A stretch of 64,000 bases of DNA from contig CAILEM010000048.1 in NCBI GenBank assembly GCA_903833215.1, forward strand, positions 1-64,000, written 5' to 3'. The translations under genes were made by a program, and so were the position numbers. This DNA comes from an uncultured Armatimonadota bacterium (GTDB taxonomy: Bacteria > Armatimonadota > Fimbriimonadia > Fimbriimonadales > Fimbriimonadaceae). Below are positions 2,423 to 61,105 of this stretch, piece after piece. Position 1 is the stretch's first letter, and the number at the start of each line of letters is the position of its first letter. The notes under the pieces were generated by a model. It was given only the letters and a program-made list of their open reading frames with translations. It searched no databases and was not told the DNA's origin.

Positions 2423-2968
2423 ATGCTTGATTCGATAGACGTGTACGTTTTGCTCAAGCTTGTCGCCATTGACGAAACTTGCAGCTGGGTACAAAGCGGG
2501 TTGGCTCATGAAATTGGCGTTAGTTCCTCCATTGTTAATCGGTCTCTAAAGGAGGCAGAGCGACTCAAGCTTTACAGCCCGTCTTCCAAGCGAGTCAACA
2601 CTCCAGCGCTGGAAGGGGCTCTCGTTCATGGCGCACGATACTTCCTCGCGCCGAAGAGAGGCGGCGAGGTGCGAGGTATACCGACTGCCTGGGCAGCACC
2701 GCCTTTGGTTGACGAGATCGTCTCACTAGATGCACTACCGCCGGTATGGCCAGATCCGATGGGAGAAACTCGGGGATTATTCATCGAACCACTACATCCA
2801 AGCGCACCTCAGGCTGCGCTGCGTGACCGAAAATACTATGAGTTACTGGCGATAGTCGATGCTCTGCGCATTGGTGGGCCGAGAGAGCGGGTCCTGGCCG
2901 CAACACAACTTCACCGGCGATTTGGGCTAAAAGGAGCGGGCGAGTATGAGAGCTGTTCCACCCATTGA
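2423..2968 (+). CDS. Winged-helix DNA-binding protein (antitoxin/regulator of a nucleotidyltransferase pair)
   Basis: This 181-residue protein has a MarR-like helix-turn-helix in its first 60 residues (LLKLVAIDETCSWVQSGLAH, then EIGVSSSIVNRSLKEAERL). Proteins of this layout, with an ALR.GGPRER...A...L..R tail, are commonly encoded just before a nucleotidyltransferase-fold protein. Here the next gene starts at 2946, inside this one, in such a pairing. The perfect palindrome at 2386-2410 directly upstream suggests autorepression. The frame is intact. I infer the antitoxin or regulator role from layout; the partner is broken, so this may be a surviving solitary regulator. Confidence 0.6.
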   Translation: MLDSIDVYVLLKLVAIDETCSWVQSGLAHEIGVSSSIVNRSLKEAERLKLYSPSSKRVNTPALEGALVHGARYFLAPKRGGEVRGIPTAWAAPPLVDEIVSLDALPPVWPDPMGETRGLFIEPLHPSAPQAALRDRKYYELLAIVDALRIGGPRERVLAATQLHRRFGLKGAGEYESCSTH

Positions 2969-3324
2969 GTTACTGAACTATGCCGCCGAAAAGCTCGGCG
3001 ATCTCTGTCCCGAAGTGGTATTCCTCGGCGGTGCTGTCGTCAGCCTGCTCACCACGGAAAAGGGAGGACTTCCGCCCAGATTCACCAATGATGTTGACGT
3101 GGCCATTGAAATAAGTGGATTTCGGCGACATGATCCGGGTAATCGATGGTCGACGGACGATCTCCAGTGAGGTCATAGAAGCCCACCCAAGCCTGACCAA
3201 GTACATACAAGAGGAGTTCACCGCTCTTCTGAATGAACCTTACATTGATCATGCTGTCACTGAGCACGTTGATTCGGGGCGCGAAAGGTTGGTGTTTGAC
3301 CGCATTCGTGCTTTCACACCCTAA
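2946..3324 (+). pseudogene. Nucleotidyltransferase-fold gene with internal deletion
   Basis: The first part (2946 to about 3110) reads LLNYAAEKLGDLCPEVVFLG, then GAVVSLL and FTNDVDVAIE, the GG...D-x-D catalytic core of a nucleotidyltransferase. After ISG the frame becomes meaningless and stops at 3170. Another frame, from about 3113 to 3324, reads DFGDMIRVIDGRRTISSEV, then YIQEEFTALL and VFDRIRAF, which resembles the C-terminus of the same family. The middle, by my recollection of intact homologs roughly 150 residues, is missing and the ends are out of frame. The gene overlaps the regulator by 23 bases. It is almost certainly inactive. Confidence 0.7.
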
Positions 3325-3395
3325 TTCCAACAGCGTGGTTTTCCTTTCAAGAATCGTTGAGCTTTGATCCTTACGCTTTGCCTGTGGATTTGGAG

Positions 3396-4823
3396 CTATC
3401 CCAGCTTCGGCGGATACAACACCATTGCAGCCGCACCGTAGAGGCCAGCGTCGAGGCCGAAGGGGGTGGCGGTTAGGCCGGGGGAGCGGAGGTAGGGGGC
3501 GATCCAGTCGCTGAGGGCGACGGCACCGCAGGCTACGATTTGGTCGGGGAAGTACATTTCTTGGAGCACGATTCCGGCTTGGAAGAAGGCGCTGAGACCC
3601 TTTTGGATTTGCTCGGGAGTCGGATTGGGGCTGAGGCTGGCACCGCCGAGAAGCTCTTCGAAGGTTGCTCCACCAGGGGCGGGGAGGTCGTTGAGGCGAG
3701 GATATTCGCCGCGGGGGCCCATCAGGATTTTGCCTTCAGCGACGAATCCGCAGCCAACGCCGGTACCAAGGGCCAACGTTGCAACGCGCTTTCCTGCGAA
3801 TTGGGGAAGGCACGAGTGTCCCCAGGCGGTAGCCAATCCGTCGTTGAGGGCGGCTGTGGGTACTCCCAGAGTTTCCTCGGAAAACACCGAGCCCACGTGG
3901 TCGGGAATGATCGCTTTGGCCTCCCACAGTTCTCCCGTGCGTGGATCGACGGTACCGCCTGTGCTCACCCCGACGGCGGTGACGCCTTTGGCTTTGATCT
4001 GGGCTCGGATCCAGTCGATGCGGGCTTGGCGCTCTTCGAGCAGCGGCATCCGTTCGATTTCGAGCAGCTTCCAGCCGGGAGAGAAGGTTGCGAACCGCAT
4101 CCAGGTTCCGCCGATGTCGACCGCGCCGACATTGCCGGTTCGGCGCTTCGCTGGTATGAATCGGCGCGTGGTTTTGATCGGATCGTTGAGTGCGCCGCCA
4201 ATGATCACACCGCTTGCGCCGATGCGCAAAGCCGCCTCCACTTCCCAAGGCTCGGCAAAGCGTCCTTCGGCAAATACGGGGACCTTGACGCTTTGGACGA
4301 CCTGTCGAAGAAGTTCAAGATCGGGGCCGATGGTGCTTTTTCGTTCGTCGGTATATCCCGCGAGCGTCGTGCTGACAAGGTCGACACCCGCAGCAATTGC
4401 AGAAGATGCGTTCTCAAGTGAATCGATATCGGCCAAGACGAGGCAGCCACGCTGGTGGGCATGAGAAACGAGATCCGCAAGCATCGCACCGCCAGGGCGG
4501 GGTCTACCGGTTGCGTCGAGTGCGACAATTTCACACCCGGCGTCGATGACCTCGTCAATTTCTCGTAAGGTTGGTGTGATGTAGACCTTCGAGTCGTCGT
4601 AGGTGCGCTTGATCAGGCCGATGATGGGTTGTGTCGTTGCCGGACGAATCGCCTCGATGTTCGGTACACCCTGTAAGCGCAAGATGCGGACCCCTTCTTG
4701 GAGGCTGGCTTCGGCCAACTTGCGCAATACGGCTGGGTCGTCGACAGGCGAACCTTCGGAAGCTTGTACTGAAGCGACGAGGGGACACGACTTTAGGAGT
4801 TCAACGAGATCCGAAACGAGCAC
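3396..4823 (-). CDS. nanEK: Fused N-acetylmannosamine-6-phosphate epimerase and ROK-family ManNAc kinase
   Basis: This is a 475-residue two-domain protein. Residues 1-225 are a NanE TIM barrel (VASVQASEGSP, IIGLIKRTYDDSKVYITPT, VLADIDSLENA, VFAEGRFAEPWEVEAAL, GASGVIIGGALNDP). Residues 230-475 are a ROK sugar kinase (VGAVDIGGTWMRFA phosphate loop, ALNDGLATAWGH, TLALGTGVGCGFV). Together they would phosphorylate ManNAc and epimerise ManNAc-6-P to GlcNAc-6-P in sialic acid or amino-sugar catabolism in the cytoplasm. The zinc motif CxCGxxGC common in ROK kinases is absent from the kinase half. The start codon is GTG at 4823. No nanA or transporter lies nearby; the neighbours downstream are a membrane protein and a glycosidase. 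Confidence 0.88.
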   Translation of the reverse strand: MLVSDLVELLKSCPLVASVQASEGSPVDDPAVLRKLAEASLQEGVRILRLQGVPNIEAIRPATTQPIIGLIKRTYDDSKVYITPTLREIDEVIDAGCEIVALDATGRPRPGGAMLADLVSHAHQRGCLVLADIDSLENASSAIAAGVDLVSTTLAGYTDERKSTIGPDLELLRQVVQSVKVPVFAEGRFAEPWEVEAALRIGASGVIIGGALNDPIKTTRRFIPAKRRTGNVGAVDIGGTWMRFATFSPGWKLLEIERMPLLEERQARIDWIRAQIKAKGVTAVGVSTGGTVDPRTGELWEAKAIIPDHVGSVFSEETLGVPTAALNDGLATAWGHSCLPQFAGKRVATLALGTGVGCGFVAEGKILMGPRGEYPRLNDLPAPGGATFEELLGGASLSPNPTPEQIQKGLSAFFQAGIVLQEMYFPDQIVACGAVALSDWIAPYLRSPGLTATPFGLDAGLYGAAAMVLYPPKLG

Positions 4824-4856
4824 GATCCATTTTAGACTGTGGGGGAGCTGTCACTC

Positions 4857-5642
4857 TTACTCTCCGAACAGCTTCCGAAGGCGCTCTTGCTCGGCTCGTT
4901 CGGTTTCTCGGCGTTTGACTTCGTCGAAGTAACTCTGATCGTAGCGAACCTGGCCACGCGTGGTGGCCTCTTTCTCGTTGACCTTGATGCGCCGGCTAGA
5001 TCCATAAGTTGCGTTCCCTGGGCCGTACTGCCAGAACGGAAACTTGTCTGCCGCGTAGAGGGCAAAGATGATGAGGTGAAGGCAAGCGAGCACGCCCATT
5101 TGAGGTGCGCTGGCACCGTAGAGGAATAGGTTGATCAAGGCAGTCGCCCAGCCCAACCAATATCCGGTGAGGGGCAAGAATCCAAATAGATTCACGACAC
5201 TGGTTCGATTTCGAACGCACCAGACAACCGTGACCGCAGATTCTGGGAGATATGGGCTCCCGATAAGCGCGTTCAGGTGAAGGAGATTTGCTCCGACGAG
5301 CATGAAAACCCCTGCCAATAGGGTGGAACCAAACCAAACGAGCATGAACCGAGGTGTTCCGATTTCACGCTCAATGGTTGTCCCGACTTGGAACAGCCAG
5401 ATCAGCAGGAAAACAAAACAGGAAAGGGAAAGCCCGCCTCCAAATGGCCAGTTCGCCCACGGGTACGTCAGAAACGTCCAAACGCGCGATGGTGCGGCGG
5501 TACTCAGCATCAACTGGTCCATTCCCTGCATGCGCGTTAGCCAAAAGACGATGCTGCTGGCAATGAGCGATATGATGAGGAGCACCGTAAACGGTGCGCT
5601 TTTCTTTCGGGTCCAACTCAGGATGTCTTCGACTCGTCCCAT
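4857..5642 (-). CDS. Rhomboid-like polytopic membrane protein, probably not a protease
   Basis: This 261-residue protein has about six hydrophobic segments (FTVLLIISLIASSIVFWL, FVFLLIWLFQVGTTIE, FMLVWFGSTLLAGVFMLVG, VVWCV, LGWATALINLFLYG, LHLIIFALYAADKF) and a charged C-terminal tail rich in E, R and K. The topology and the WTFLTYPW...G...E...G segments recall the rhomboid fold. The catalytic GxSG is not present: the corresponding loop reads SPYLPESAVTVVW. The catalytic His is also uncertain. It is therefore best called rhomboid-like, perhaps a pseudoprotease. ATG at 5642; it lies between nanEK and a glycosidase gene on the same strand. Confidence 0.6.
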   Translation of the reverse strand: MGRVEDILSWTRKKSAPFTVLLIISLIASSIVFWLTRMQGMDQLMLSTAAPSRVWTFLTYPWANWPFGGGLSLSCFVFLLIWLFQVGTTIEREIGTPRFMLVWFGSTLLAGVFMLVGANLLHLNALIGSPYLPESAVTVVWCVRNRTSVVNLFGFLPLTGYWLGWATALINLFLYGASAPQMGVLACLHLIIFALYAADKFPFWQYGPGNATYGSSRRIKVNEKEATTRGQVRYDQSYFDEVKRRETERAEQERLRKLFGE

Positions 5643-5661
5643 AGGTGTCTTGTGATTATGG

Positions 5662-7989
5662 TTACTTACGCCGAATCAGCGTGATTCCTGCGATGGTAAC
5701 TGACTGCGGCATGCCGGATTTTCGTTGTGAGTCGATGAGTGCTAGCGTGTCGAGCCGGATTGGATAGTGGACCACGCCATCAGCCGCGCCACCCCACGTT
5801 CCACCCCAATTGCCAGCGGAGTCGTGATTGAGGTTGAACGGAACGAATTTCCATCCCTTCCAATCGATATTGCCAAATGTCGGTTGAAACGTCTGGCCGG
5901 TGGCGTCCACAAAACGCATTCGCAGTGCGTCGCCAGAAGCGTTGCCTTTCACCAGCATGTTTAGGCACTCGGGCTCACCGACAAGTGGCTTGGCCATGTC
6001 TCCTCTCGCATGGAGTTCTATGAACTTCCAACCGGGCTGGAACTGATAATTTATCTGCACAGCCTCAGCGCCTTGAAGCGGACCATCGCTTGCTACCGTC
6101 ACCTTCGCGTCCATTGCTAGTCCGACCTTCGCGTCTCCGTCTTGGGTGAAGCTCACTCGGGAGTCGTCCAGATGTCCACTGGAGTCCTTCGAGAACCTGT
6201 CGAGACTCATCGGAATGAAACCAGGTTCCGTGAAAGCGGGAACGTAGTCGAGATCGGGCGAAGAACCGACCGGCAGAAGGGGTTTGTTATTGCGCGTCAG
6301 AGTGATTTTGACGGAGGGGTCCATCAATCTCTCCTTTTCCGAGGCAATCGATATGAACTCGTCTTCGAACCAGATTGGAAAAGACGCAAGCGTCTTCTTG
6401 GGTTTGCTTGAATGCAATGTCGATAGGACCATCGAGCGTTTCCCAGGATTGTGAATCGAAGCCCACACCTGCCCTTTCGCTTTTATGATGCCGACCGAAA
6501 CGGGTTTTGACTGTGTGCATTCTACGGTCTGTGCGAAAGTCGCTCCTGATTTTGTGACAACACTGAATGTCAAGGTGAGAGGCGTCGCGGTCCAGTGGCT
6601 GTCGAGTTTGTCGGTCAGCATTCGGGCCAGCTTCTCGGAGGTTTTGCGAGTCACCCAAGCTTCAAGATCAGTTCCACTCAGTCGAACTCGAGCCTTGCGA
6701 TCATTCAACCTAGTCCAATCAAATCGGGCTAGGAGGTCAGAAACAAACGCCTGCGTTCTGCGTCGATCCTGGATGTCAAACGACATTGGCAGGTGGCGGC
6801 AAGATATCAGGAGAGAAGGATCCTTCGCGTCCCAAATCAAGGGAGTTTCCGTGAGCCATGATTTGGCGGAATCCGCGCCTAAGTGGAGGTCCGCCTGATG
6901 GATTTGCCGTGAGGTAGTCCAGCCGACGTATTTCACGCTCTGGCCCTTTTGGAATGCGAGGACGAAGTCCGCCTTTGAATCTTGGGCAAGGCGCATCCTG
7001 AATGCGTATCCCGCCAGCGCTTGACTGACCCGTTGAATTTCCTTGTATGCGGGTTTCGGAGTCAGATCGTGGGTCACCGTGCCGAAATGCTGTTCACCAT
7101 CATTGGGGTCTGTCCCGTCGTTCTTCCAGTCGTAGGCGATCGATAGGGGAGCCCCACACATGAGGTTGATCAAATACTGGCGGCAAAGGAATAGAGCTTG
7201 GCGTTGAATGCCAATTCCGCTGGCGACATCGGTGTAGCCCCACTCGCTAGAAATCATCCCAACCGAACGACCCTTTGGAACTTTGGAATCGATCATTCGG
7301 CGAAGCCTGGTCCAGTCCTCGATCACGGTCTCGGGTTCTGAGCCACGGTAGGGGTGAGTTGAGACCGCGTCCCAGTACTCAAGCATTCCCGCATCGATGC
7401 ACCGTTGGAGAAACGACCAATCGAAGGTTGAGACGCCAGGGCCGATGTACCACTCCTGTGGGGCGACTTGACGAATCGTCTTGCCGACCGCCTTTGCCAG
7501 AGCCACGTACTCTTCAACATCCGGTTTCGGCTGCCAGAAGCTGATATTTGGTTCGTTCCACATCTCCCACACGATCCCTTGCGCCTTGAAGTGGGTTATC
7601 GAGGCTTTGACAAAACGGCAAAAAGCGTCTCTCCCTGCCTGAGTACTCGGTGCGCCCTTGTCATAGAGATCGTTGCCGTAGTCGAAGATGAATAGGGGCC
7701 GAATGCTGACATCGCGAAGACTGGCCATCAGGCGGTCGTAAGCGGTGAAGTCGTAATGGCCCTTAGACTTCTCGATCCTATCCCATCCGAAATCCATCCG
7801 AATCCATTTGAAGCCTGCAGCGGCCAGCTTCTGCATTTCGCCCGGACCCGCGTCGGTGAAATGGATATTCACTCCCCATCCGCTGGGAACAATTTGGCTG
7901 GGAAGCGGGAATTTCTGACGGTAGTCAGAGCCCGAATTCGTCGCCAAAAGCGTCAGCAGAATCTTCGCGAAGTAAATCATGACGTCCAT
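5662..7989 (-). CDS. Secreted clan GH-A glycoside hydrolase (GH39/GH5-like)
   Basis: The protein has about 775 residues. The N-terminus MDVMIYFAKILLTLLATNSG looks like a short export signal. The catalytic TIM barrel spans about residues 30-350: FKWIRMDFGWDRIE, LFIFDYGN, then EMWNEPNISFW, whose Glu after Asn is the clan GH-A acid/base, and GMISSEWGYTD, whose Glu is the likely nucleophile. The C-terminal half is beta-rich with no recognised motif and could include a carbohydrate-binding region (VQINYQFQPGWKFIELHARG). I chose ATG 7989; a TTG 12 codons upstream (8025) is also open. The substrate cannot be told from sequence. Confidence 0.8.
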   Translation of the reverse strand: MDVMIYFAKILLTLLATNSGSDYRQKFPLPSQIVPSGWGVNIHFTDAGPGEMQKLAAAGFKWIRMDFGWDRIEKSKGHYDFTAYDRLMASLRDVSIRPLFIFDYGNDLYDKGAPSTQAGRDAFCRFVKASITHFKAQGIVWEMWNEPNISFWQPKPDVEEYVALAKAVGKTIRQVAPQEWYIGPGVSTFDWSFLQRCIDAGMLEYWDAVSTHPYRGSEPETVIEDWTRLRRMIDSKVPKGRSVGMISSEWGYTDVASGIGIQRQALFLCRQYLINLMCGAPLSIAYDWKNDGTDPNDGEQHFGTVTHDLTPKPAYKEIQRVSQALAGYAFRMRLAQDSKADFVLAFQKGQSVKYVGWTTSRQIHQADLHLGADSAKSWLTETPLIWDAKDPSLLISCRHLPMSFDIQDRRRTQAFVSDLLARFDWTRLNDRKARVRLSGTDLEAWVTRKTSEKLARMLTDKLDSHWTATPLTLTFSVVTKSGATFAQTVECTQSKPVSVGIIKAKGQVWASIHNPGKRSMVLSTLHSSKPKKTLASFPIWFEDEFISIASEKERLMDPSVKITLTRNNKPLLPVGSSPDLDYVPAFTEPGFIPMSLDRFSKDSSGHLDDSRVSFTQDGDAKVGLAMDAKVTVASDGPLQGAEAVQINYQFQPGWKFIELHARGDMAKPLVGEPECLNMLVKGNASGDALRMRFVDATGQTFQPTFGNIDWKGWKFVPFNLNHDSAGNWGGTWGGAADGVVHYPIRLDTLALIDSQRKSGMPQSVTIAGITLIRRK

Positions 7990-8273
7990 CGGATTATGGG
8001 GAGGTGGGGACGGTTTTGAGTTCAAAAGGACGAAGGAAATGAGCCTGCGTAGATATATATGGGTAAGTGAATCGACCTTGGGCCAAGATCAGACGCGGTT
8101 TGGGCCCGAACCCAAGGCGGTAAACTAGCCCCTTGACGTTAGGATGCTGAATGACGCAGGAAGGACCTCAATCGAATATGCCGACGAACGGCCCCTCGGC
8201 GGTCGCCTCCTCAATCGATGCCCTCATCAGGGATATCGCCAGCATGCCCGTCCTACAGGAGCAAGAACAGTTA

Positions 8274-9689
8274 ATGGCTAACGAAAACTTCGACGCAGAC
8301 CTTGTTGTGATTGGCGCTGGACCTGGAGGGTACGTCGCTGCCATCCGTGCCGCGCAACTGGGAGCGAAGGTCGTTGTCGTCGAGAAGGAATTTCTAGGTG
8401 GAACGTGTCTTAACTGGGGATGTATTCCCAGCAAAGCGCTCATCGCCAGCGTCGAGCGTCTGCAACATGTGAAGCACGCCGACAAGCTCGGGGTGAAGGT
8501 ATCCGGCGAAGCCACTATCGACTTCGACGCGATGATGGCGCGGAAGGACAAGATCGTTCAGACCCAGCGCGGCGGTGTTGGCATGTTGTTCAAGAAAAAC
8601 GGCATCAAGCACGTCGAAGGGTTTGCATCGTTCGTCGATGCCCACAACATCACCGTCACCAAAGACGGCAAGAAAGAAAACATCAGCGCCAAGAATTTCG
8701 TGTTGGCGATGGGTTCTTCGGTCATCCATATTCCCGTGCCTGGCCTCGAAGGCGGTCGTGAGCAGAACGTTTGGACCTCTGACGATGCCGTAAACGCTCC
8801 CTTCGTTCCCAAGCGAATGGCCATTCTCGGTGGTGGTGCCGTTGGCTGCGAATTCGGCTATGTTTTCAACGGCCTCGGCAGCGATGTCACGGTCATCGAA
8901 ATGATGCCTCAGCTTCTCCCAATGATGGATTCCGAACTTGGCGTCGAGCTTGGCAAGTTGCTTAGCCGCCAGGGACTCAAAGTTCGAACCGGCGCAACGA
9001 TCGAGAAGTGCGAGCGAAGCGGTGAAGCCTGGAAGGTCACGGTCAAGAAGGGCACCGACGTCGAAGTCATCGAAGTCGATGTAGTTCTGCTTGGCGTTGG
9101 GCGAAAAGCTAACACCGAGAACATGAACCTCGAGAAGATCGGCATTCAGCTTCACCGACGAGGAGTGTCCTTGCTCGATGACACGATGAAGACTCACGTG
9201 CCAAACATCTATGCGATCGGCGACGTCACCGGTCGAATTCAGCTTGCTCACGTCGCATCGGCAGAAGGCATCGTTGCCGTCACCAACGCCGTGACCGGCT
9301 CCGAGAAGAAGATGGACTACAAGGCAGTTCCGAACTGCGTTTACACTTCGCCTGAGGTCTCCTCCGTCGGTCTTACTCAGAGTGAGGCAGAGGCGAAGGG
9401 CTACGATGTCGCGATTGGTAAGTTCAACTTCCGACCTCTCGGCAAGGCGATGGCCACGACCGAGCAGGATGGTTTCGTCAAGGTTGTCTGCGACAAGAAG
9501 TACGGCGAAGTCCTCGGCGTGCACATGATCGGCGCTCACGTCACCGACATGATCCACGAAGGCGTCGTCGCCCTTAAGCTTGAAGCGACTCTTGAGTATA
9601 TGGTCGACTGCATCCACGCTCACCCAACCATGTCGGAAGCCGTCCTTGAAGCATTTGAAGATGCTCAGGGTCACGCGATCCACAAGTAA
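8274..9689 (+). CDS. lpd: Dihydrolipoyl dehydrogenase
   Basis: This is the E3 flavoprotein of 2-oxoacid dehydrogenase or glycine cleavage complexes: it reoxidises dihydrolipoyl groups with NAD+. Visible motifs are FAD-binding VVIGAGPGGYVAAIRAAQLG, redox pair GGTCLNWGCIPSKAL, NAD-binding AILGGGAVGCEFGYVF, the YAIGDVTG flavin segment, and the C-terminal CIHAHPTMSEAVLEA with the catalytic His. From ATG 8274 the length is 471 residues, the normal family size. An in-frame ATG at 8151 would add 41 residues with no family counterpart; AGGAG lies about 12 bases before 8274. No E1 or E2 gene is adjacent. Confidence 0.92.
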   Translation: MANENFDADLVVIGAGPGGYVAAIRAAQLGAKVVVVEKEFLGGTCLNWGCIPSKALIASVERLQHVKHADKLGVKVSGEATIDFDAMMARKDKIVQTQRGGVGMLFKKNGIKHVEGFASFVDAHNITVTKDGKKENISAKNFVLAMGSSVIHIPVPGLEGGREQNVWTSDDAVNAPFVPKRMAILGGGAVGCEFGYVFNGLGSDVTVIEMMPQLLPMMDSELGVELGKLLSRQGLKVRTGATIEKCERSGEAWKVTVKKGTDVEVIEVDVVLLGVGRKANTENMNLEKIGIQLHRRGVSLLDDTMKTHVPNIYAIGDVTGRIQLAHVASAEGIVAVTNAVTGSEKKMDYKAVPNCVYTSPEVSSVGLTQSEAEAKGYDVAIGKFNFRPLGKAMATTEQDGFVKVVCDKKYGEVLGVHMIGAHVTDMIHEGVVALKLEATLEYMVDCIHAHPTMSEAVLEAFEDAQGHAIHK

Positions 9690-9705
9690 GTCAGGGAATT
9701 CGAAC

Positions 9706-9748
9706 GGGCCGCCAACGCATTTGTCGTTGGCGGCCCCATTTTGTTTTT
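9706..9748 (+). terminator. Rho-independent terminator after lpd
   Basis: A perfect 12-bp stem, GGGCCGCCAACG at 9706-9717 and its complement at 9725-9736, has a 7-base loop and is followed by CATTTTGTTTTT. It closes lpd before the next gene at about 9805. Confidence 0.9.
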
Positions 9749-9804
9749 GAGGCACTTGCCTACCAAAGGCTGAACGGAATTTGGTTCTGCTATGTCAAAC
9801 AGTT

Positions 9805-11709
9805 ATGTTCTGGACCAAAGTGGGTTTGGCATATGCTTTTCTGGCTGGTCTCGCACAGGTCGGATGGTCACGGTCGGACCTTTCGACAGAGCCACGGCTT
9901 CAAGCGAAACTGGACGTACACCTGAAACGAGTTTTGTTGGCGGACTTCCTCAAATTCTTGCGTACCCACACGGACCAGAAGTTCATCTTAGCGAGAGAAC
10001 TTGAGCCGTTGATGATCTGCGCGTTCGTGAAGGATCGTCCGCTATGGCAAGTGATGGACGGGGTTGCTGAGGCACTCGGATGCCAGTGGAAAGACGTGCA
10101 GTCCGCTTGGCGCTTGGAACTGACGCCAGAGTCGAAACTCAAGCTCCCCGCCTATGTCGCAGCGGAGAAAGCGGCGCTTCGGGATGAGGTGTATCAAAAA
10201 GCCAGTGCCCTCGCCGAATTGGCAGCAACTCAGAAGTTCACCGGAGATATTGGAACCTCCAAAACCGCGGGAGCGGCGACGATCGAAGAATCCGCGCATG
10301 ATTGGGCAGCCCGTGTCATTCAGGATCCAGCCTATTACGTTGCGGGCTTGGCATTCGGCAGAACGCGAATTTTGTCTGATGACTGGATGAAATTCGACTG
10401 CCCAGTCCACTTTCTCTACAGCATGGTGCCAGTGGCGTACAAGCTTATCGAGCCACCCACGGCAGCGATTGCGGGCATGAATCAATGTAGCGCCCCCGGT
10501 CCGCTTGCCGAGCGATTGAGCGGGGTTCAGGTGAATTTTAGGAACGTAGGATGGGCAGGCACGATTCAGTCAGTGATGATTGGGCAAGGCGGCCTCCGAG
10601 CGCAAAAACCATTGGAACTGCTGCGGTTCCCGAGACCGGATAACCGCCTCAGCAAGACTCCGGGTGGGAAGTGGTTACTCGATTGGGAGAGCCCCCTCGA
10701 CAATCCGGACGAACCCATCTTGAGTCAGCCCATCGAGCATTTTGAATTGAAGCCATCCCCGTTCTTTCATGAGGGCAGAGGAATCGAGGACTACCTTGAG
10801 GGACTTGCAGACTCGACTGGGATTCCGATTGTTTCGGATGCATTCCGCATGCCCATTCGAGGGAAGGTGGCTGCGGCGGGAGACACGATTGGGAAGTGGC
10901 TTCAGTCGCTAAAGGAAGCCCAGAAGTGCTTCGTGAAGGTTCGCGATGGACGAATTGTTGTGCGTCATGGTGGTTTTTGGGATTTGCGGGAGTGGGAACC
11001 CCTTGAAGAATCGTTCTCCGCGATAGAGGCGCTCTCAAATCCTGGGCTGGATGACTACGCCGATTTCGCCTTCAAACTTGCCTTCAAGAGCCAAAATATC
11101 GACCAGCTTTTTGGTTGGCTTCCGTTCTTCGATAGTGAGCAAGTGCCGCTGACGCGATTTGATCCGACGCCCATTCGAGATAACTACCTTGCCTTGGCTG
11201 CCTTCGGCCAAATGGAGGAAGCTCAGCGGGTACACATCCTCTCAGGGGGATGGGTGAATGTCTATAGGAACGTGATGGACAGCACTCGTACCGTCTCGAC
11301 GCTCAATTACGCAAAGGACTCGAAGGGCCGAAAAATCCCCTACATGACCGACACCACAGAGGGCGCTACTGTCGGTGCGGACTTCTTTGTAAATATCAGC
11401 GCCGTTGTGGGCTCGTTCTACGGCGGGCATGCGGTGGGATTCGAGCCGAAACTTCTTGAGGCATGTTGGGAACCAGCAGTGTATCGTCACCTCTGGGGTG
11501 ATTCGCCTGACGATAATCCGGAATACGTGAAGAAATACGACCGAGTCTCTCTGTTTCACGCCCACTACTTTCGATTGTGGAGAGCGGCTACCGAAGGCGT
11601 TCCGAACCGGGCGTCTCGGCATCTCACCGGCACTTTCTCGTTCTTTTCGTCGGTCAACGATGTTGATGGCGTAGTGAATGAGGTGGCGATTCCAAGCTCC
11701 AAGAGCTGA
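9805..11709 (+). CDS. Exported protein with STN-like N-terminal domain, tandem paralog 1
   Basis: This 634-residue protein has a signal-like N-terminus (MFWTKVGLAYAFLAGLAQVG). Residues about 35-100 (KRVLLADFLKFLRTHTDQKF, then VKDRPLWQVMDGVAEALGCQW) match the pattern of an STN/secretin N-terminal short domain: a two-helix module with a final GCQW. A middle region carries DFLERAF-equivalent and VVRHGGFWDLREWEP, shared with the next gene. I recognise no enzyme motif. The function is unknown; the similarity to 11767-13497 shows tandem duplication. The ATG at 9805 is preferred over TTG 9781 because it gives a compact signal peptide. Confidence 0.6.
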   Translation: MFWTKVGLAYAFLAGLAQVGWSRSDLSTEPRLQAKLDVHLKRVLLADFLKFLRTHTDQKFILARELEPLMICAFVKDRPLWQVMDGVAEALGCQWKDVQSAWRLELTPESKLKLPAYVAAEKAALRDEVYQKASALAELAATQKFTGDIGTSKTAGAATIEESAHDWAARVIQDPAYYVAGLAFGRTRILSDDWMKFDCPVHFLYSMVPVAYKLIEPPTAAIAGMNQCSAPGPLAERLSGVQVNFRNVGWAGTIQSVMIGQGGLRAQKPLELLRFPRPDNRLSKTPGGKWLLDWESPLDNPDEPILSQPIEHFELKPSPFFHEGRGIEDYLEGLADSTGIPIVSDAFRMPIRGKVAAAGDTIGKWLQSLKEAQKCFVKVRDGRIVVRHGGFWDLREWEPLEESFSAIEALSNPGLDDYADFAFKLAFKSQNIDQLFGWLPFFDSEQVPLTRFDPTPIRDNYLALAAFGQMEEAQRVHILSGGWVNVYRNVMDSTRTVSTLNYAKDSKGRKIPYMTDTTEGATVGADFFVNISAVVGSFYGGHAVGFEPKLLEACWEPAVYRHLWGDSPDDNPEYVKKYDRVSLFHAHYFRLWRAATEGVPNRASRHLTGTFSFFSSVNDVDGVVNEVAIPSSKS

Positions 11710-15682: not shown

Positions 15683-17134
15683 CTAACCTTTGCCGTCGGC
15701 TGGCTTTGCTGGCGGCGTAACTACCTCTGCATAGATCGAAACCTGGGCGACCTTGTTTTGTGGGGTCCAGACGAAGGAAGCGATAAAGCTCTGGGTGCCG
15801 CTTGAGATGCGGTAGACGAGAACGGTATCCGTACCCTGAACTCGCGAACCCCCGAATGTCAGGCTGTCCACCGTCTTGAGTTGGTTCCATGTGCTTCGCG
15901 CGGCCGATTTCACGCGGCCAGTTTTCATAGGCAAGACCATTTCCGGTTCCATCAGCGCCTCATCCGGTTTCCCTTCCGCAAGCGCGGCAATGACGAGTTT
16001 TATTTTCTCGGTGAGTTTTGGATCTGGATCGGGAACGGGTGCAAATGGCGGATTCGACAGTGTCGGATCAAATAATTCGGCGATGTGCTTGGTCATCGCC
16101 TCCGCGGGAAGTGGATAGAGATTCGACAAAAGGATGACCGAGAGCTTCATGCCTGGGAATCGACTGATTCCTGCGCTGTAGCCGGCGCTGTTACCGCTAT
16201 GCCCCATGTAACCCTTGGTACCGGGTTGGTTGAGATACCAACCCATTCCGTAGGCATGGGTTCTTCCGCTAGTTAGCTTGGTTCGCGTCCAGATGGTTTG
16301 ATAGGACTTGCGATTGAGTAGCCGCAGATCGTTGAGGGCGGCATCCCATTTCACGAGATCCGGGATGTTTGAGATCAGCCCACCATCGGCTTTGATGCTT
16401 GCGGCCCCCTTTGGCGTAGGCATGAGCGCCCGCCGACGAATCACATAACCGCGTGCTTCACCGGGAACGGGGCCTGTCCCCTCCGAGAATATCGTGTGCG
16501 TCATGCCGAGCGGGCGAAGGATGTTCTCTTGTACGAACTTCGTGTAGGGTTCTTTGATCAGATCTTCAATCAGCCACCCCAGCAAAGCGTAGTTGGTATT
16601 GCTATACGCCCATGCCTGCTCTGGGGGGAAATCTAGAGGAAGCTTTCCAACGTTTTCGATGAACTGTGCACGTGTGAATTTGTCGAGCAGCCCCAAACCA
16701 GGGAGCGACACATACTCAGGCAAGCCAGAGTCCTGATTCAGGAGGTTGCGAACCTTGATTGGACTCCAACTAGGTGGGGCATCGGAAAGGTACTTCGAAA
16801 TCGAATCGTCGAGGTTGATGCGTCCAGCTTCGACAAGGATCATGATCGCCATCGAAGTGAACTGCTTGGTAAGCGATCCGATTTCAAACAGATCGTCGAT
16901 TTTTGCGAGGCGCTTCTCGCGAATATCAGAAAGTCCAGACGCTCCTGATCGTACGATCTGGCCGTTCTTGACGATTGCGAAGGCTATCTCCGGAATCTGC
17001 CGCTTTTGCATTTCCGACCTTAAGTAGTCGTCGATCGAATCTGCCTTAGCGAGACACGCGATTCCAGCAAGCACTAAAAACGATGCTAGTTTCGCAACGG
17101 GACAACCTGCAATTCCGAGCATCGATGTTCTCAT
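15683..17134 (-). CDS. Secreted class C beta-lactamase-fold serine hydrolase
   Basis: The protein has 483 residues with an N-terminal export signal (LASFLVLAGIACLAKA). Active-site motifs are SLTK (SxxK) near residue 87, YSNTNY (YxN), and GHSGNSAGY (HxG in place of KTG), the set found in family S12 esterases, D-aminopeptidases and AmpC-like enzymes. The last ~110 residues after LFDPTL form an extra domain of the DUF3471 or cystatin-like kind seen in many environmental members. It is most likely a peptidase or esterase of the envelope and not a resistance enzyme. Divergent from deoB, with 18 bases between the starts. Confidence 0.8.
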   Translation of the reverse strand: MRTSMLGIAGCPVAKLASFLVLAGIACLAKADSIDDYLRSEMQKRQIPEIAFAIVKNGQIVRSGASGLSDIREKRLAKIDDLFEIGSLTKQFTSMAIMILVEAGRINLDDSISKYLSDAPPSWSPIKVRNLLNQDSGLPEYVSLPGLGLLDKFTRAQFIENVGKLPLDFPPEQAWAYSNTNYALLGWLIEDLIKEPYTKFVQENILRPLGMTHTIFSEGTGPVPGEARGYVIRRRALMPTPKGAASIKADGGLISNIPDLVKWDAALNDLRLLNRKSYQTIWTRTKLTSGRTHAYGMGWYLNQPGTKGYMGHSGNSAGYSAGISRFPGMKLSVILLSNLYPLPAEAMTKHIAELFDPTLSNPPFAPVPDPDPKLTEKIKLVIAALAEGKPDEALMEPEMVLPMKTGRVKSAARSTWNQLKTVDSLTFGGSRVQGTDTVLVYRISSGTQSFIASFVWTPQNKVAQVSIYAEVVTPPAKPADGKG

Positions 17135-50984: not shown

Positions 50985-52352
50985 GCCAATTTCAAAACCC
51001 TCTTTAATTTGGCCTTGAGACCAGCCGGGAGGGAGCGATCAGCGCCGGTTGGATGTATGGAGGAGGTTGCTAAGCTGGTTTGGTCGATTGTTGACGTTTA
51101 GGTGCTGTAAGCAGGCGTATTCAAGTAGTCCCTGTGCTTTTGAGGGTTGCCTTTTGAGCTTTTTCTCGTAAGAATTTCAGATTCTCAAAATTCGGAGGGC
51201 GAATATGGTCAGCACACCGAACATGAGATGGGCGTGGACCTTTGGGGCTCCTCGAACGAAGATGAAGTTGCCTCCGTGATTGTCCTTGAGGTCAGAGTTA
51301 AATCTCTCGACCGTCGTTCGGTTCTCAAACCGTTTAGCCCGATCTGGAGTCATTTTAGAAGCGGGCTGGTCTTTGTGGTTTTTCTTGGGTGCGACGATTG
51401 CGACCTGGTCAAGAGCTTTGGCGGTACGCAGGATGGGCTCTCCCGGGTAGCCGCGGTCGAACAGGTTATAGAAGACTTGTCCGGTCCGCTCGGAGACCGC
51501 TTTCATCAAAGGGATCGCCCCAAGCGAATCGCTCATGCTCGCTGATGTAGTGAAGAATATCAAAGGAACTCCGCCGTCTCCCACGCTCACATGTCCCTTG
51601 TAGCCTCGCCAGTAGGATGGAAACCCCATTGAGCCGATCTTCACGCCGAAGTCACAAGCAGACGGAAACGCGGCAGCCGACTCTTGCCAGGTGCGAAGCT
51701 CTTGGAGTTCTTGTACCTTTGGAGGCAGGGGATACTCTTTGCGTCGCCGCTTACCTTGCTTGCGCTCGACCTTGGCTTTGGGCTTTGCCTTGGGCTTACG
51801 TACGGCTTGCTCACGCGCTGGCAACGCAGTTGAATCGTGAGAGACATGGTGAATGATGTCTTGACCAAGGTGGTGCCGCACATTCGCTTCTAACGTCTGG
51901 TCCAAGACGCCTGAGATCGAAAACTCCTCCAGCGCACGGCTGAAAGTCGATTCGCTCGGTACACCTCCCGTGAATCCGCAGATGCGCCGAAGCCGAGAAT
52001 CTACACCAAGACGTTCCACCAAGTCCTTGGTCGTTGGGATGTTCAAAACGGCTTTGGCAATAAACGCACGAGCAATCTGTTTCCGTGGAAGTTGGGGGCG
52101 ACCAAATGGCAAACAAGTTTGCGTGACTCGCTCCTCAATGCGAACGACTTCTAAGACCATTGCAACCTGCTGATGAGAAGGAAGAAGAGGGCCTGTCTCC
52201 TCCTCCAAGTAGCCAAACAGAGATCTTTGCAAATCCAGCCAAAACCGTGCTAATCTCCATCCAAGCTCGGACGCGTCCTGATCTATTTTCACAAAAATAT
52301 GGACGTGCCGGGCCTACCTAAAGACCCCATTATCGACTTCTGAAATTGGCTC
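50983..52352. mobile_element. Complete insertion sequence, DDE family, 12-bp inverted repeats, AGCT target duplication
   Basis: The element runs from GAGCCAATTTCA (50983-50994) to its exact inverse TGAAATTGGCTC (52341-52352), about 1370 bases. It is flanked by AGCT on both sides (50979-50982 and 52353-52356), a four-base target duplication. It carries one transposase gene (51177-52292, minus strand). Since AGCT is its own complement, the same data can be read as a 16-bp inverted repeat without duplication. The remaining ends (50995-51176 and 52293-52340) show no other gene. Confidence 0.8.
51177..52292 (-). CDS. IS4/IS5-superfamily DDE transposase
   Basis: This intact 371-residue transposase has the catalytic triad visible as IIHHVSHDSTALPAREQA (first Asp), YNLFDRGYPGEPIL (second Asp), and TTVERFNSDLKDNHGG (Glu). 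A KPKAKPKAKVERKQGKRRRK basic stretch lies between. GFTGGVPSESTFSRALEEF is the family's helix before the first Asp. The ends (12-bp inverted repeats and AGCT duplication) fit this superfamily, in which 4-bp duplications are common. The intact frame suggests recent insertion. Confidence 0.88.
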   Translation of the reverse strand: MKIDQDASELGWRLARFWLDLQRSLFGYLEEETGPLLPSHQQVAMVLEVVRIEERVTQTCLPFGRPQLPRKQIARAFIAKAVLNIPTTKDLVERLGVDSRLRRICGFTGGVPSESTFSRALEEFSISGVLDQTLEANVRHHLGQDIIHHVSHDSTALPAREQAVRKPKAKPKAKVERKQGKRRRKEYPLPPKVQELQELRTWQESAAAFPSACDFGVKIGSMGFPSYWRGYKGHVSVGDGGVPLIFFTTSASMSDSLGAIPLMKAVSERTGQVFYNLFDRGYPGEPILRTAKALDQVAIVAPKKNHKDQPASKMTPDRAKRFENRTTVERFNSDLKDNHGGNFIFVRGAPKVHAHLMFGVLTIFALRILRI

Positions 52353-53866: not shown

Positions 53867-54889
53867 ATGGTCCCGAAACCGATTCTGGCTCCTAGCCTCC
53901 TTCTCTTAGTTGCCTGTGCTTCGCCGCAGGCCTCTCCCCCTTCGAACGTCGACACAAACTCTTGGATTACCCGAGCTGTTGCAATCTGTCGTGCGCGTGA
54001 GTCGGTCTATGACAGGGCCAGAATTGAGTTCAAAACCTGGACACCGTCCACCGGCGAAGGCCGGTTTATTTGTGAGAACTGGCCAGGCCGACTCAATCTC
54101 TGGGAAGTAGAAAAAGGAAACCGCCGGTTAATCCTCAAATGCGAAGAGGGAAAGGTCTGGACAACGATGCCGGGCGCTATGAATGAGGGTCGCTTCGCCC
54201 TTTACTACGGAACGGAAGATCAAGGAAAAATCTCCCAAGTCTCGTCCATTATCCTCAACCCGCTCGTAACCGGGTGCCTGCTGGCGCCGGGCGTTACCGC
54301 TATGAGTCGTGCAATCTCAAGCGTGAAAGGTGCCAATGCAGAGGTCTCCGCTGGCCGCCTCACCTGCAATTTCACGCCATCGCCCGGGCTCTTTCCCAGG
54401 CAAACCCATTATCAACTTGAGCTTCCGTCAAATGGCGGTCCAGGCATCGTCACCTTTACGATTTCGACGGTGGGACTGCCTTCGCGCAAATACGTCAGCC
54501 GGTACTCGATCGACGGAAGGTTAAGCGGCAATGAACTTGAGGTGTCCGGTGGAAAATCGACAATCCTGTCCAAGGTCGAAATCCTCTCAGTTACCAAAAT
54601 GGCTGAGCCGCCGGCTCGATTGACGATGACCCACGGCCACCCATACTACGACACGGTCGTTCAAACGTACAGATATTGGGGCCTAAAGGCTGTCTTCCAA
54701 ACCAAAGAAGCAGAAAAGGTCTTGGCTGCGGCGAAGTTAAAGAAGCAGCTTACTTTGTCCAACGAGACGGCAAACCTCAATTGTGGCCAAGAGTCCCTTT
54801 ACTACCTTTCGAAGTTTATCGGCAAGCAGGGACTTGACGTAGACCAAAATCCGGCACCATTTGGGACGACCCTTGGCGACGTGGCTTAA
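53867..54889 (+). CDS. Lipoprotein with N-terminal half of a C39-like cysteine peptidase domain (stops early)
   Basis: The 340-residue product begins MVPKPILAPSLLLLVACASP, a lipobox LVAC with the lipidated Cys at residue 17. The middle part is beta-rich and LolA-like in style (FICENWPGRLNLWEVEKGNR), with no enzyme motif. From residue 300 the sequence ANLNCGQESLYYLSKFIGKQ reads as the N-terminal Cys-Gly motif of a peptidase C39-like domain. The frame meets TAA at 54887-54889 right after TTLGDVA, but the same frame then continues with the rest of the domain. The upstream part is intact and starts 118 bases after the GT4 gene. Confidence 0.65.
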   Translation: MVPKPILAPSLLLLVACASPQASPPSNVDTNSWITRAVAICRARESVYDRARIEFKTWTPSTGEGRFICENWPGRLNLWEVEKGNRRLILKCEEGKVWTTMPGAMNEGRFALYYGTEDQGKISQVSSIILNPLVTGCLLAPGVTAMSRAISSVKGANAEVSAGRLTCNFTPSPGLFPRQTHYQLELPSNGGPGIVTFTISTVGLPSRKYVSRYSIDGRLSGNELEVSGGKSTILSKVEILSVTKMAEPPARLTMTHGHPYYDTVVQTYRYWGLKAVFQTKEAEKVLAAAKLKKQLTLSNETANLNCGQESLYYLSKFIGKQGLDVDQNPAPFGTTLGDVA

Positions 54890-55120
54890 TTAGGCAGATC
54901 TAAAGGGTGGGACTGCCAAATTCTTCGATATGCGACCAGTGACTTGAGCTCCGTGGAGTTGCCCGCACTTTTCTCGGTCTCGCCGTCACACTTCGTCGTC
55001 GTTACGTCCCGAGATAGAGAAGGATATCTCCTCATAAGTCCTCCGTACGCCGTGCAAAGGCTAACGGCGGACAACCTCCAAGCGGTTTGGTCCGGATACG
55101 TGATGAGGATTCTCAATTGA
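54890..55120 (+). pseudogene. C-terminal half of the C39-like domain, in frame after the TAA
   Basis: In the same frame as the lipoprotein, after one TAA, come LGRSKGWDCQILRYATSDLS, then SPSHFVVVTSRDREGYLLIS and ADNLQAVWSGYVMRILN, ending TGA at 55118. HFVVV is the His strand of C39-like peptidases (His at 54989-54991); the usual DP after it is SP here. The TTG start of the next gene overlaps this TGA, as in a coupled operon. The simplest reading is one gene of about 416 codons cut by a single nonsense change, or a sequencing error. Stop-codon readthrough is a less likely possibility. Confidence 0.7.
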
Positions 55121-56019
55121 AGGCAAAAGCTCTAGTTTGGCCCATATTGGCGTTTTGCGTCGGATGTGTCGGGATGGTTGTCGCGACACGGTTGCACGCA
55201 AATCCAAGCGGGATGGTGAGAAGAGAATTCGGAACTGTGCCCCCGCTGAAAGATCTGGTCTTCAAGACCGCAGTGAACAACCCGAACAGTTTTCCGCTGA
55301 TCTTGGAGGGCTTTGATAAGGCTTGCGGATTGAGGGTCACCGTCGATGGCGGCGGGATCGTCCCCCCGAAAGGGAGGGTCGAAATGACGCTGACCGCTCG
55401 GACCAACACACTCGCCGGCCCAGGCGGAGCAACCTTCGAACTTACCGAGAATAAGCTTGGAAAACGAACAGTTGTCCCTTACGTCCTCTCGTGGCTGGTC
55501 GCGCCACATCCTTCCCTGTCTCAAGGTGAGATCTGGTTCTCAGGCGACGATGTTTCTCCCAAAGTGCTCCAGTTGATGAACGCCGACAGTGGAGACCGAG
55601 TCCTGTCTGTCCACGCGCCAAGCTGTTATTCAATTAGCGTGGAAAAAGAAGGAGTTACTGTGACTCCTTCCACCAAGTTTGAGGATCTCGTGCCGGGAAC
55701 CTTGGAGGTCGCGCTGCAAACCAGTGTCGGACCGGTCAACCTTTCGATACCCATTGATCGGGTGCCCATCCGCAGCAACGCAGTAAGTCCCGGCTACATC
55801 TTCCTTACTCCCGGAGAGACCAAGCTGGCGCAATTTGATCACGGAGATGAGACCTGGAAGGTTGAAAAGCAAGGACCCTACGCGACGGCTGAGATCCGCG
55901 GGAACACGATCACAGTAAAGGGTGGTCGCGCCGGAGACGATCATGAAGCGGCGATCTTCTTCCGCAGCTCCAAGGGTCAAACAGCGGAGTTGCACGCGTT
56001 TGTTGAAGGCTCCAAGTGA
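55117..56019 (+). CDS. DUF1573-like membrane-anchored protein
   Basis: From TTG 55117 the protein has 300 residues. One N-terminal helix (ALVWPILAFCVGCVGMVVAT) anchors an extracytoplasmic part whose start (MVRREFGTVPPLKDLVFKTA, then NNPNSFPLILEGFDKACGLR) fits a DUF1573/ASH-type Ig-like domain. Two such domains may be present, the second near LLQLMNADSGDRVLSVHAP. DUF1573 proteins often accompany secreted, disulfide-containing products in Planctomycetes and relatives. The start overlaps the previous TGA; its own TGA overlaps the GTG of the VKOR gene. The role is unknown. Confidence 0.7.
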   Translation: MKAKALVWPILAFCVGCVGMVVATRLHANPSGMVRREFGTVPPLKDLVFKTAVNNPNSFPLILEGFDKACGLRVTVDGGGIVPPKGRVEMTLTARTNTLAGPGGATFELTENKLGKRTVVPYVLSWLVAPHPSLSQGEIWFSGDDVSPKVLQLMNADSGDRVLSVHAPSCYSISVEKEGVTVTPSTKFEDLVPGTLEVALQTSVGPVNLSIPIDRVPIRSNAVSPGYIFLTPGETKLAQFDHGDETWKVEKQGPYATAEIRGNTITVKGGRAGDDHEAAIFFRSSKGQTAELHAFVEGSK

Positions 56020-56972
56020 AAATAGCCCGTTCCCTTGTTCTCGGCCTCCTTGGGATCTTTCTGATCTTGGCGTTCTGCGACCACTTCGGGATCGGATCAT
56101 TAACTTGCGGTGAAGGTTGCTCCGCCGCGACATCCGGATGGTTTGGATCGTTCGTGTTGGTTTTAGGCGCGGTTGCGCAGGGCGGATTAGTCTATTTGTT
56201 GGTCACGAACAAGGACCACGAGTTCAAAATCTTCTCCGGAATATGCGCTGCCGGCGGAGTTGCGCTCATCGGTCTGATGATCTTCTCCTTTCACTCGGTC
56301 TGTCAGACTTGTGCAGGATTTGACGTGACGATGCTCATTCTATGGGTGTCAAATTGGTGGTCCGGAAAGGCGAAGTTCGCGCTGATCCCGACAGCATTGA
56401 TCCTTTCCGTCCTACCCGGCATTGTGCTCTTTGAAAGGTTCGCACCCAAATCGGCGGCTGCGAACGAATCTCCCGACATCGCAAGGTACGAGGGAGAGAC
56501 CCTTGATCCGATGCGCACCAACCTCATCGTCTTCGCAGACCCTAATTGCCTTCATTGCCGAAAGCTTGTTGAAAAGCTACTTGCCAATAACAAGCAATAC
56601 CAAGTGTTTGATCGCTGGGTGGTGTTTGAGCCACCGATGGAAAGCGGAAGACGCGTCGCTGCAATTATCGCTGCTTTACAATCCCGCGGTGACCGTTTTG
56701 CAACACCCTTGCTGCGCGATCTTTCGTCGTCGCAAGGTGAGTTTACGGATCATCAACTCGTCACTTTTGCCGAGAACATCGGCATCTCCGAAAAAATGAA
56801 AGCGATGCTTGTGAATCTTCCGCAGGACGGTGTAAATCGGCTAATGGAAGACGCCAAGAGCGCATCGCAGTGCAGGATCACCAAGGTACCTGCCGTTTAC
56901 TTAATATTAGGAGAAGGTGGTTCAGGTAAAGGCTGGAACATCGTGCCTGACGATCAAGTTGTTAGCGAATAG
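56016..56972 (+). CDS. VKOR-like/thioredoxin fusion, disulfide-forming membrane enzyme
   Basis: This 318-residue protein begins at GTG 56016. The N-terminal half has four hydrophobic helices with loop cysteines (LTCGEGCSAATSGWFG) and a redox motif FHSVCQTCAGFDV, the CxxC of vitamin-K-epoxide-reductase homologs that pass electrons to quinones. The C-terminal half is a DsbA/thioredoxin-like domain (NLIVFADPNCLHCRKLVEKL with CLHC; cis-Pro region ITKVPAVYLI). Such fusions oxidise proteins in the periplasm by themselves. It lies 22 bases before the gene of an 8-Cys small protein, which is its most obvious substrate. Confidence 0.82.
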   Translation: MKIARSLVLGLLGIFLILAFCDHFGIGSLTCGEGCSAATSGWFGSFVLVLGAVAQGGLVYLLVTNKDHEFKIFSGICAAGGVALIGLMIFSFHSVCQTCAGFDVTMLILWVSNWWSGKAKFALIPTALILSVLPGIVLFERFAPKSAAANESPDIARYEGETLDPMRTNLIVFADPNCLHCRKLVEKLLANNKQYQVFDRWVVFEPPMESGRRVAAIIAALQSRGDRFATPLLRDLSSSQGEFTDHQLVTFAENIGISEKMKAMLVNLPQDGVNRLMEDAKSASQCRITKVPAVYLILGEGGSGKGWNIVPDDQVVSE

Positions 56973-56994
56973 CGATCGACAAGGAAATTGACAA

Positions 56995-57405
56995 ATGAAG
57001 AAGTCTATGAACGTCTTCAGCGCCTTGGGCGCTGGGTTGGTAGTGGGTGCCGGAATGATGGTGGGTGCAGCGAATATGCATTCGCGTCCACAAGTGGTAG
57101 GCGACAAAGAGGCTGGCAAGGTCAAGGGGGGAGACATATTCTCCGCCTGCAGCTTCCCTACCTGCAACTCATACGGAACCTGCAGTACCGGATTTGGCGG
57201 TGAATACTATTCAGACCCGGTCAGCACTACAAAGAGCTGTACGGCTGCCTCATACCCTTACTGCGGCGATCAGCCGAAGAAGGTGACTTGCGTTTACCAG
57301 GTGTACTCTGATAGATTGTGCACTGTTCATAGCGGTACGCAGTCGATAACCAGTCCCTACTGCGCACTCCTGACGGCTACTGCAACGTCAACTGTAGCAG
57401 GCTAA
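56995..57405 (+). CDS. Small cysteine-rich exported protein with double-glycine leader
   Basis: This 136-residue protein has a good ribosome site (AAGGAAA). Residues 1-30 form a Sec-like signal (MKKSMNVFSALGAGLVVGAG...). Residues 35-46 read VGDKEAGKVKGG, which matches the double-glycine leader rule: hydrophobic at -12, Glu at -8, small hydrophobic at -7, Val at -4 and GG at -2/-1. The rest, about 90 residues, has eight Cys (FSAC, PTC, GTC, KSC, YPYC, VTC, DRLC, SPYC) and is rich in Ser, Thr and Tyr. I know no family. Its place after the VKOR fusion and the C39-like gene suggests oxidative folding and proteolytic maturation outside the cell membrane. Confidence 0.75.
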   Translation: MKKSMNVFSALGAGLVVGAGMMVGAANMHSRPQVVGDKEAGKVKGGDIFSACSFPTCNSYGTCSTGFGGEYYSDPVSTTKSCTAASYPYCGDQPKKVTCVYQVYSDRLCTVHSGTQSITSPYCALLTATATSTVAG

Positions 57406-57465
57406 TTAGCAGTGGGCTTTGACAAAACTTCGTTCCGCTCAAGGCCCAGGTGCTCGCTGGACAAC

Positions 57466-58122
57466 ATGATGATTAAACAGAACCCACAAATAGGAGCTAG
57501 TCGAGCCTTTACGTTGATTGAGCTCATGGTAGTAATGGCGATTATTGCCATACTTGCCTCTATCTTGATGCCGGTCTTTGCCAGCGCTCTCGAACGTGGC
57601 AAGCAGGCGTCGTGCCTGGAGAATCTCCATCAATTAGATCTCTCAATAACCCTTTACTCAAATGATTCGGATGGATTTGCTCCATGCTATACGTCGAACG
57701 AACTGTTTCTTTCTAACGGCGGTCCGCTGCCTTCGAACTCCGATGATCCGAAGCTGCTTACACAAGTCATAAATCCGTATCTAAAGTCGAAGCAGGCTTG
57801 GTTCTGCCCAAGCGATAGGATGGTGAGCAAGCCTGTTTTCTATCTCGGAATCGTCCACACCTACATGAGCTACAACGTAGTTACATTCGATCCCGTTGAC
57901 CGCGGCGGATTACCTCATTTGAACCTCGATTCGGCGCCTACCGGCAAATTCCTCGTTGGCGACGCGGTCGCCCCATTGTTCGACTCCGATTCGGTGTTCG
58001 TTACCGGCGAACCCCCGTATCCATCGCTTTCCAACCACGGTGCCACGATTTCCCAATACGTTAATGTTGGAGGTTCAGCTTTGCGTGTGAGCCCACGATT
58101 CCTTTCAGGCGCGTTGTACTAA
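57466..58122 (+). CDS. Pseudopilin-like protein next to the cysteine-rich protein gene
   Basis: From ATG 57466 the protein has 218 residues: a short leader, SRA/FTLIELMVVMAIIAILASI with Glu5, and PVFASALERGKQASCLENL. The body contains FCPSDRM and SLSNHGATISQYVNVGG, as in DUF1559-type or H-x9-DG-like pseudopilins of this phylum. The cleavage residue before Phe is Ala in place of the usual Gly, which some peptidases accept. It follows the cysteine-rich gene by 60 bases and may be a substrate or scaffold in the same export process. Confidence 0.7.
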   Translation: MMIKQNPQIGASRAFTLIELMVVMAIIAILASILMPVFASALERGKQASCLENLHQLDLSITLYSNDSDGFAPCYTSNELFLSNGGPLPSNSDDPKLLTQVINPYLKSKQAWFCPSDRMVSKPVFYLGIVHTYMSYNVVTFDPVDRGGLPHLNLDSAPTGKFLVGDAVAPLFDSDSVFVTGEPPYPSLSNHGATISQYVNVGGSALRVSPRFLSGALY

Positions 58123-60421: not shown

Positions 60422-61105
60422 CTATTCTTCAAATAGATTGCGTTGTTGGGCAGGCTCTCTCCTTCCCGGCACAATATTTTGAGGGACATCATAGCCAAGT
60501 TTTTGAAACGTTTTAAGTCGGCTCCGATGCATCTTTAGCAAAACCCCACAGCTGGCATCTACATAATCGAATACTTCGACCCCCGCTTTTCCCTCAGCGG
60601 CACGATCCAAACGACCGACGTACTGAACGAGCCTTCCTTCGAACGAAATTGGGGAAGCCAGAAACAGCGTATCTAGATCCGGAAGGTCGAAGCCCTCGCC
60701 CACCAACGAGGCGGTCGCCAGAAGAACGGTCGGTTTCCCGTCCTTTCTCGTTGTCGAGATATCTGCCAGCATCTGGCGACGCCGCTTTGGCGACATAAGT
60801 CCTTCCAGACAGAAGATCCCATACATGGCGTCGCTTGATTTTCGCACCATCGATTCCAAGGTCTTGATCTGATCCTTCCTGTCAGCTAAAACCAGTGCAA
60901 AGCTTCCGTGACCGAGCACTTCAACAATGTCGTCAGCAATCATTCTATTTCTGTCTTCGTCGGTAGCGAGCAACTCTGCAATCAGGTGATATGGCGGCTT
61001 TTGGCCAAGTTCATCCGGGACTCTGAAGGCCGTTTGACGAACATTCAACGATTTCGAGAGGGCATGGCCTTCTCCGATCTTGATTTCGTGAAAGAGGGCG
61101 GCCAA
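60422..61105 (-). pseudogene. C-terminal half of a DEAD/DEAH helicase (TOTE-system-like)
   Basis: The frame of 227 residues carries only helicase domain 2: LHEIK-like start, HLIAELLATDEDRNRMIADD, FALVLADRKDQIKTLESMV, LATASLVGEGFDLPDLDTLF, LASPISFEGRLVQYVGRLDR and VEVFDYVDASCGVLLKMHRS. The GEGFD and Q..GR..R motifs (V and VI) are complete, while Walker A, DEAH and motif III are missing; a TAG lies shortly upstream in frame. The layout is what I recall of the helicases of TOTE conflict systems (primase-helicase-nuclease defence). It is a fragment, so non-functional. Confidence 0.6.

Follow-up and report, generated by a model that had tools for sequence, protein, structure and literature searches.

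The window, a 64,000-nucleotide stretch from an uncultured Armatimonadota bacterium of the family Fimbriimonadaceae, carries on its plus strand a frame at 53867-55120 that comprises 417 residues when read through and is interrupted by a sole inner stop, a TAA at 54887-54889. On direct reading of the sequence, this TAA is codon 341, in frame with the ATG at 53867 and the TGA at 55118-55120. The residues upstream of it end in GTTLGDVA, those downstream run LGRSKGW...SHFVVV...MRILN, and the terminal TGA overlaps the start TTG of the next gene (55117-55119) as TTGA. The part 5' of the stop (53867-54889, plus) encodes a product of 340 amino acids with a hydrophobic N-terminus ending in LLLLVAC, which, judged by eye, is a possible lipobox, and the part 3' of the stop (54890-55117, plus) holds 76 codons. 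The initial annotation had described a single TAA that splits an otherwise continuous C39-like frame; the Pfam match of the tail and the intact relatives presented below bear this out, and the flanking residues and the TTGA overlap that it gave were found to be correct on re-reading.

The interrupted frame is the first gene of a four-gene cassette (53867-57405), followed by a pseudopilin-like gene. Gene 2 (55117-56019, plus) encodes an exported or membrane-anchored protein without a Pfam match, which looks DUF1573-like by eye and is 32% identical over 178 amino acids to the gene at the same place in a genome of the same family (G079). Gene 3 (56016-56972, plus; 25% identity to the G079 gene) encodes a membrane protein with a thioredoxin/DsbA-like C-terminal part, for which the Pfam matches to Thioredoxin_4 (8.6e-4) and DSBA (1.1e-3) are both slightly below the curated cut-offs; by eye, its N-terminal part appears VKOR-like. 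Gene 4 (56995-57405, plus) encodes a peptide of 136 amino acids with a hydrophobic N-terminus, a KGG step and then 8 Cys residues, and has counterparts in G079 and in a second genome, of the same genus (G012). The adjoining pseudopilin-like gene (57412-58122, plus; Pfam N_methyl, 1.3e-7) occupies the same place in G079. The gene order is kept for all five genes, the pseudopilin included, in G079 and for the first four in G012. The three cassette peptides contain 8, 8 and 9 Cys residues with a GG or AG step ahead of the Cys-rich part, and the window peptide matches that of G012 at 4e-5 and that of G079 at only 0.75. In the window, all cassette genes other than the C39 gene are open. Among the genomes searched, the combination of a C39 gene, gene 2, a DsbA-like gene and a Cys-rich peptide gene was seen only in three Fimbriimonadaceae genomes, and a literature search found no publication on a cassette of DUF1573 plus VKOR. 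From gene position, it is likely that leader removal from the peptide is the task of the C39 protein and the formation of its disulfides that of the DsbA-like protein.

The read-through frame matched the Pfam family Peptidase_C39 (PF03412) at 1.4e-7 and 31.9 bits, with a curated cut-off of 22 bits, and the 76 residues 3' of the stop matched the same family by themselves (3.8e-7, 30.4 bits). The 340 residues 5' of the stop had no Pfam match on their own, PF03412 included. A sequence search of the PDB with the C39 protein returned no match, whereas a fold search with an AlphaFold2 model of the read-through protein did. The N-terminal part of this model is poor, with pLDDT mostly below 50, and residues 304-417 are better (block means of 60-92, and of 77-92 from residue 331 on). 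Residues 279-417 matched the peptidase domains of ComA (Z 13.7), PCAT1 (Z 13.5) and LahT (Z 13.2), and residues 45-257, where the model is of low confidence, gave weak LolA/RseB-like matches with Z of about 6.2. The stop falls within a predicted helix of the C39 domain (residues 336-345), and all predicted C39 beta strands as well as the catalytic His375 are located downstream of it. The 340-residue product contains an N-terminal part of uncertain fold and the first C39 helices with Cys306. As judged from the model, the product as encoded would keep only that side of the active site which contains the Cys and cannot be a C39 peptidase, because the stop removes the beta strands and the catalytic His. 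This agrees with the consequence drawn in the initial annotation that the peptidase step is lost if the mutation is real.

The codon of the catalytic Cys306 lies at 54782-54784 and that of His375, 3' of the stop, at 54989-54991 (both plus); Cys and His are found at these positions in all of the 29 homologues. Where the catalytic Asp would lie (55037-55039, plus), the window protein has Ser391, and thus neither the Asp present in 23 of the 29 homologues nor the Asn present in two; the Asp is also absent from a few other homologues in this alignment. The spacing of 16 residues from His to the third residue is the same as that between His101 and Asp117 in LahT, the triad of which is Cys27, His101 and Asp117 (PMC6363468). 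The change from Asp to Ser suggests that catalysis had possibly been relaxed or altered by the time the stop appeared, which is not proof of inactivity. The window protein can thus be regarded as C39-related by sequence and fold and, even when read through, as a putative active peptidase only. It resembles the C39 domains of ComA, PCAT1 and LahT in family, fold, Cys, His, His-to-third-residue spacing and the presence of a GG-type peptide gene nearby, and differs from them in the Ser at the Asp position and in the interrupting stop. Moreover, the window protein stands alone and is probably exported, instead of forming the N-terminal part of an ABC transporter.

Whole-genome searches identified only two full-length relatives, those of G012 (431 amino acids) and G079 (410 amino acids), with 22-26% identity to the window protein. 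Both are encoded by single ORFs without an inner stop in the same cassette. The relative loci lie at 7240-10762 of one contig segment (L006) and, on the minus strand, at 2492-6011 of another (L005); the two relative contigs in the contig scan are those of Fimbriimonas sp. isolate MAG_BO249 and Chthonomonadaceae bacterium isolate H1_ARM1. A scan of genome contigs with the single C39 protein as query gave no matches. Within the C39 part, 18 of 62 residues 5' of the stop are identical in G012 and 16 of 62 in G079; 3' of the stop, the identities are 20 of 72 and 22 of 76, respectively, where about 5 are expected and none of 20,000 shuffles reaches the observed values. As the tail alone matches PF03412 and its identities to the relatives exceed those of the shuffles, the continuation after the stop is not a chance frame. 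The aligned sequences reveal no decay 3' of the stop, with equal conservation on both sides. The initial annotation had held that two separate genes at this place in relatives, or unrelated sequence after the stop, would contradict its reading; neither is the case in G012 and G079, and the comparison of the codon that it proposed found no stop there in either. Two separate genes can be rejected for the window as well, since the relatives carry one ORF at the same place, and so can a downstream restart, which would put the Cys half on a different chain; the first in-frame start codon 3' of the TAA is a TTG at 54944, 18 codons in. The statement that there is no further fault is correct for the frame, which has no other stop, but does not extend to the protein, which has Ser at the catalytic Asp position and, preceding GTTL, a loop that is 4 residues shorter than in G012 and G079. 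The codon-usage score 3' of the stop is at the 5th percentile of coding windows, and a scan built on that score missed the C39 case itself.

We consider a recent, ordinary nonsense mutation that ended the peptidase function of the cassette to be the probable explanation. On this view, a single nonsense substitution would have disrupted the first gene of the conserved four-gene cassette. When intact, this gene would encode an exported C39 peptidase with the Cys-rich peptide of gene 4, three genes downstream, as its substrate, from which it would cleave the GG-type leader; the DsbA-like protein would presumably introduce the disulfides of this peptide. The stop would limit synthesis to the 340-residue product, and leader removal by the C39 enzyme would be lost. 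The loss would be recent, given the equal conservation on either side of the stop, and the change from Asp to Ser suggests that the catalytic constraint may already have been relaxed or altered earlier. The undecayed sequence 3' of the stop is in line with the "fresh" mutation of the initial annotation, which the Ser residue qualifies. The residues at the alignment column of the stop are variable among the homologues, as expected for a site able to take a random substitution. The case resembles the single-internal-stop pseudogenes of bacteria, in which likewise one stop interrupts an otherwise intact homologous frame of a dispensable gene (PMC11017572), and the stop-free intact orthologues by which such a pseudogene is recognized exist in G012 and G079.

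Read-through that relies on programmed recoding or on a suppressor tRNA, with some full-length protein being made, would account for a post-stop frame that is open and conserved. However, the 47 tRNA matches of the genome have canonical anticodons and none for UAA, UAG or UGA, a test that does not extend to leaky near-cognate reading, and TAA is a normal terminator, ending 20 of 57 selected ORFs of the window (the C39 one counted) and 31 of 114 long ORFs. The T that follows the stop creates a UAAU context, which has been proposed as the most efficient termination signal in bacteria (PMC5289835). The RNA 3' of the stop is as structured as its shuffles (z = 0), and a recoding signal was rejected on finding no excess of structure. 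Relatives have no stop at that place: among the 40 C39 matches listed from 291 genomes of the phylum, the inner stop of the window is the only one, the other 39 having none. With no stop-reading tRNA, a normal terminator in the UAAU context and unremarkable RNA, read-through is very unlikely, and we give it almost no credence. Nonsense mutation and sequencing error are what remains of the three alternatives named in the initial annotation.

Alternatively, the assembly may show an incorrect base at this site, or one carried by only a minority of a mixed population, the gene being intact in the living cells and yielding the full-length protein. The TAA is known from the sequence of a draft assembly of 168 contigs, and in publicly available genomes an internal stop is frequently an artefact of assembly, with base miscalls as a common source of false ones (PMC11017572). 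The lack of decay 3' of the stop and the open cassette genes are also consistent with this possibility. So is the fact that the contig carries another inner stop. This one came from a homology-based survey that covered about 1.02 Mb of the genome and in which 50,663 codons were well aligned to a non-self homologue; the criteria of the survey do not reach the C39 gene, the relatives of which are too distant. The survey flagged three stops, and inspection by eye attributed two of them to alignments in frames that do not code. This leaves as genuine one TAG, at C48:100985-100987, in a gene for a TPR-containing membrane protein (G000:C48:99806-101680, minus; L087, TAG at 16986-16988), for which 15 other matches in the genus, 4 in this genome, are all without an inner stop. 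It could reflect local decay or locally poor base calls. On the other hand, inner stops are rare in the sampled genome, none being found in its ABC_tran (n = 73) and GT2 (n = 17) domains (0/90), which indicates that false stops do not pervade the assembly, and a single base error at the stop leaves the changed catalytic Asp unexplained. Hence, an error or minority variant is possible but less likely than a genuine mutation. If the stop is real, the 340-residue product might keep a non-proteolytic role, such as binding of the Cys-rich peptide, or of lipoproteins, by a LolA/RseB-like N-terminal part. The already lost Asp, the weak fold matches of residues 45-257 and the open remainder of the cassette point in this direction; yet that fold match lies in the part of the model with pLDDT mostly below 50, no relative is known to end at that place and the leftover C39 helices would have no sheet, which makes such a role quite improbable. 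It is unlikely, too, that the locus represents an undescribed maturation system for Cys-rich peptides, made up of an exported GG-leader peptide, a stand-alone C39 protein and a partner dedicated to disulfide formation, that remains in use although the peptidase lost first its Asp and later its C-terminal half, with the N-terminal part acting without proteolysis.

As a stop codon, the TAA is of little weight, since nonsense changes of this single kind and base errors occur frequently; most likely, no new decoding mechanism is involved. The cassette itself, in which a stand-alone C39 gene and gene 2 are joined by genes for a DsbA-like protein and a Cys-rich GG-leader peptide, is conserved in a little-studied bacterial group, and its interruption under a genuine nonsense mutation would provide a natural test of whether the Cys-rich peptide depends on its peptidase.

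A search of the genome for a second intact copy of the family of this C39 protein found none. Three other C39 genes of the genome (L090, L091 and L092, on contigs C78, C104 and C32) are intact and diverged and keep the Asp, and each lies directly upstream of a large RHS-like gene. A mobile or phage origin was rejected, as neither a match to phage DNA nor a viral-contig match of a 24-mer was found, and a plasmid search for the C39 gene gave weak C39 matches only. A DDE transposase gene at 51177-52292 on the minus strand, the only copy in the genome, is located 5' of the C39 gene, at a distance of about 1.6 kb. Further downstream, an ORF at 60422-61105 on the minus strand encodes a Helicase_C domain alone and looks like the leftover end of a larger helicase gene.
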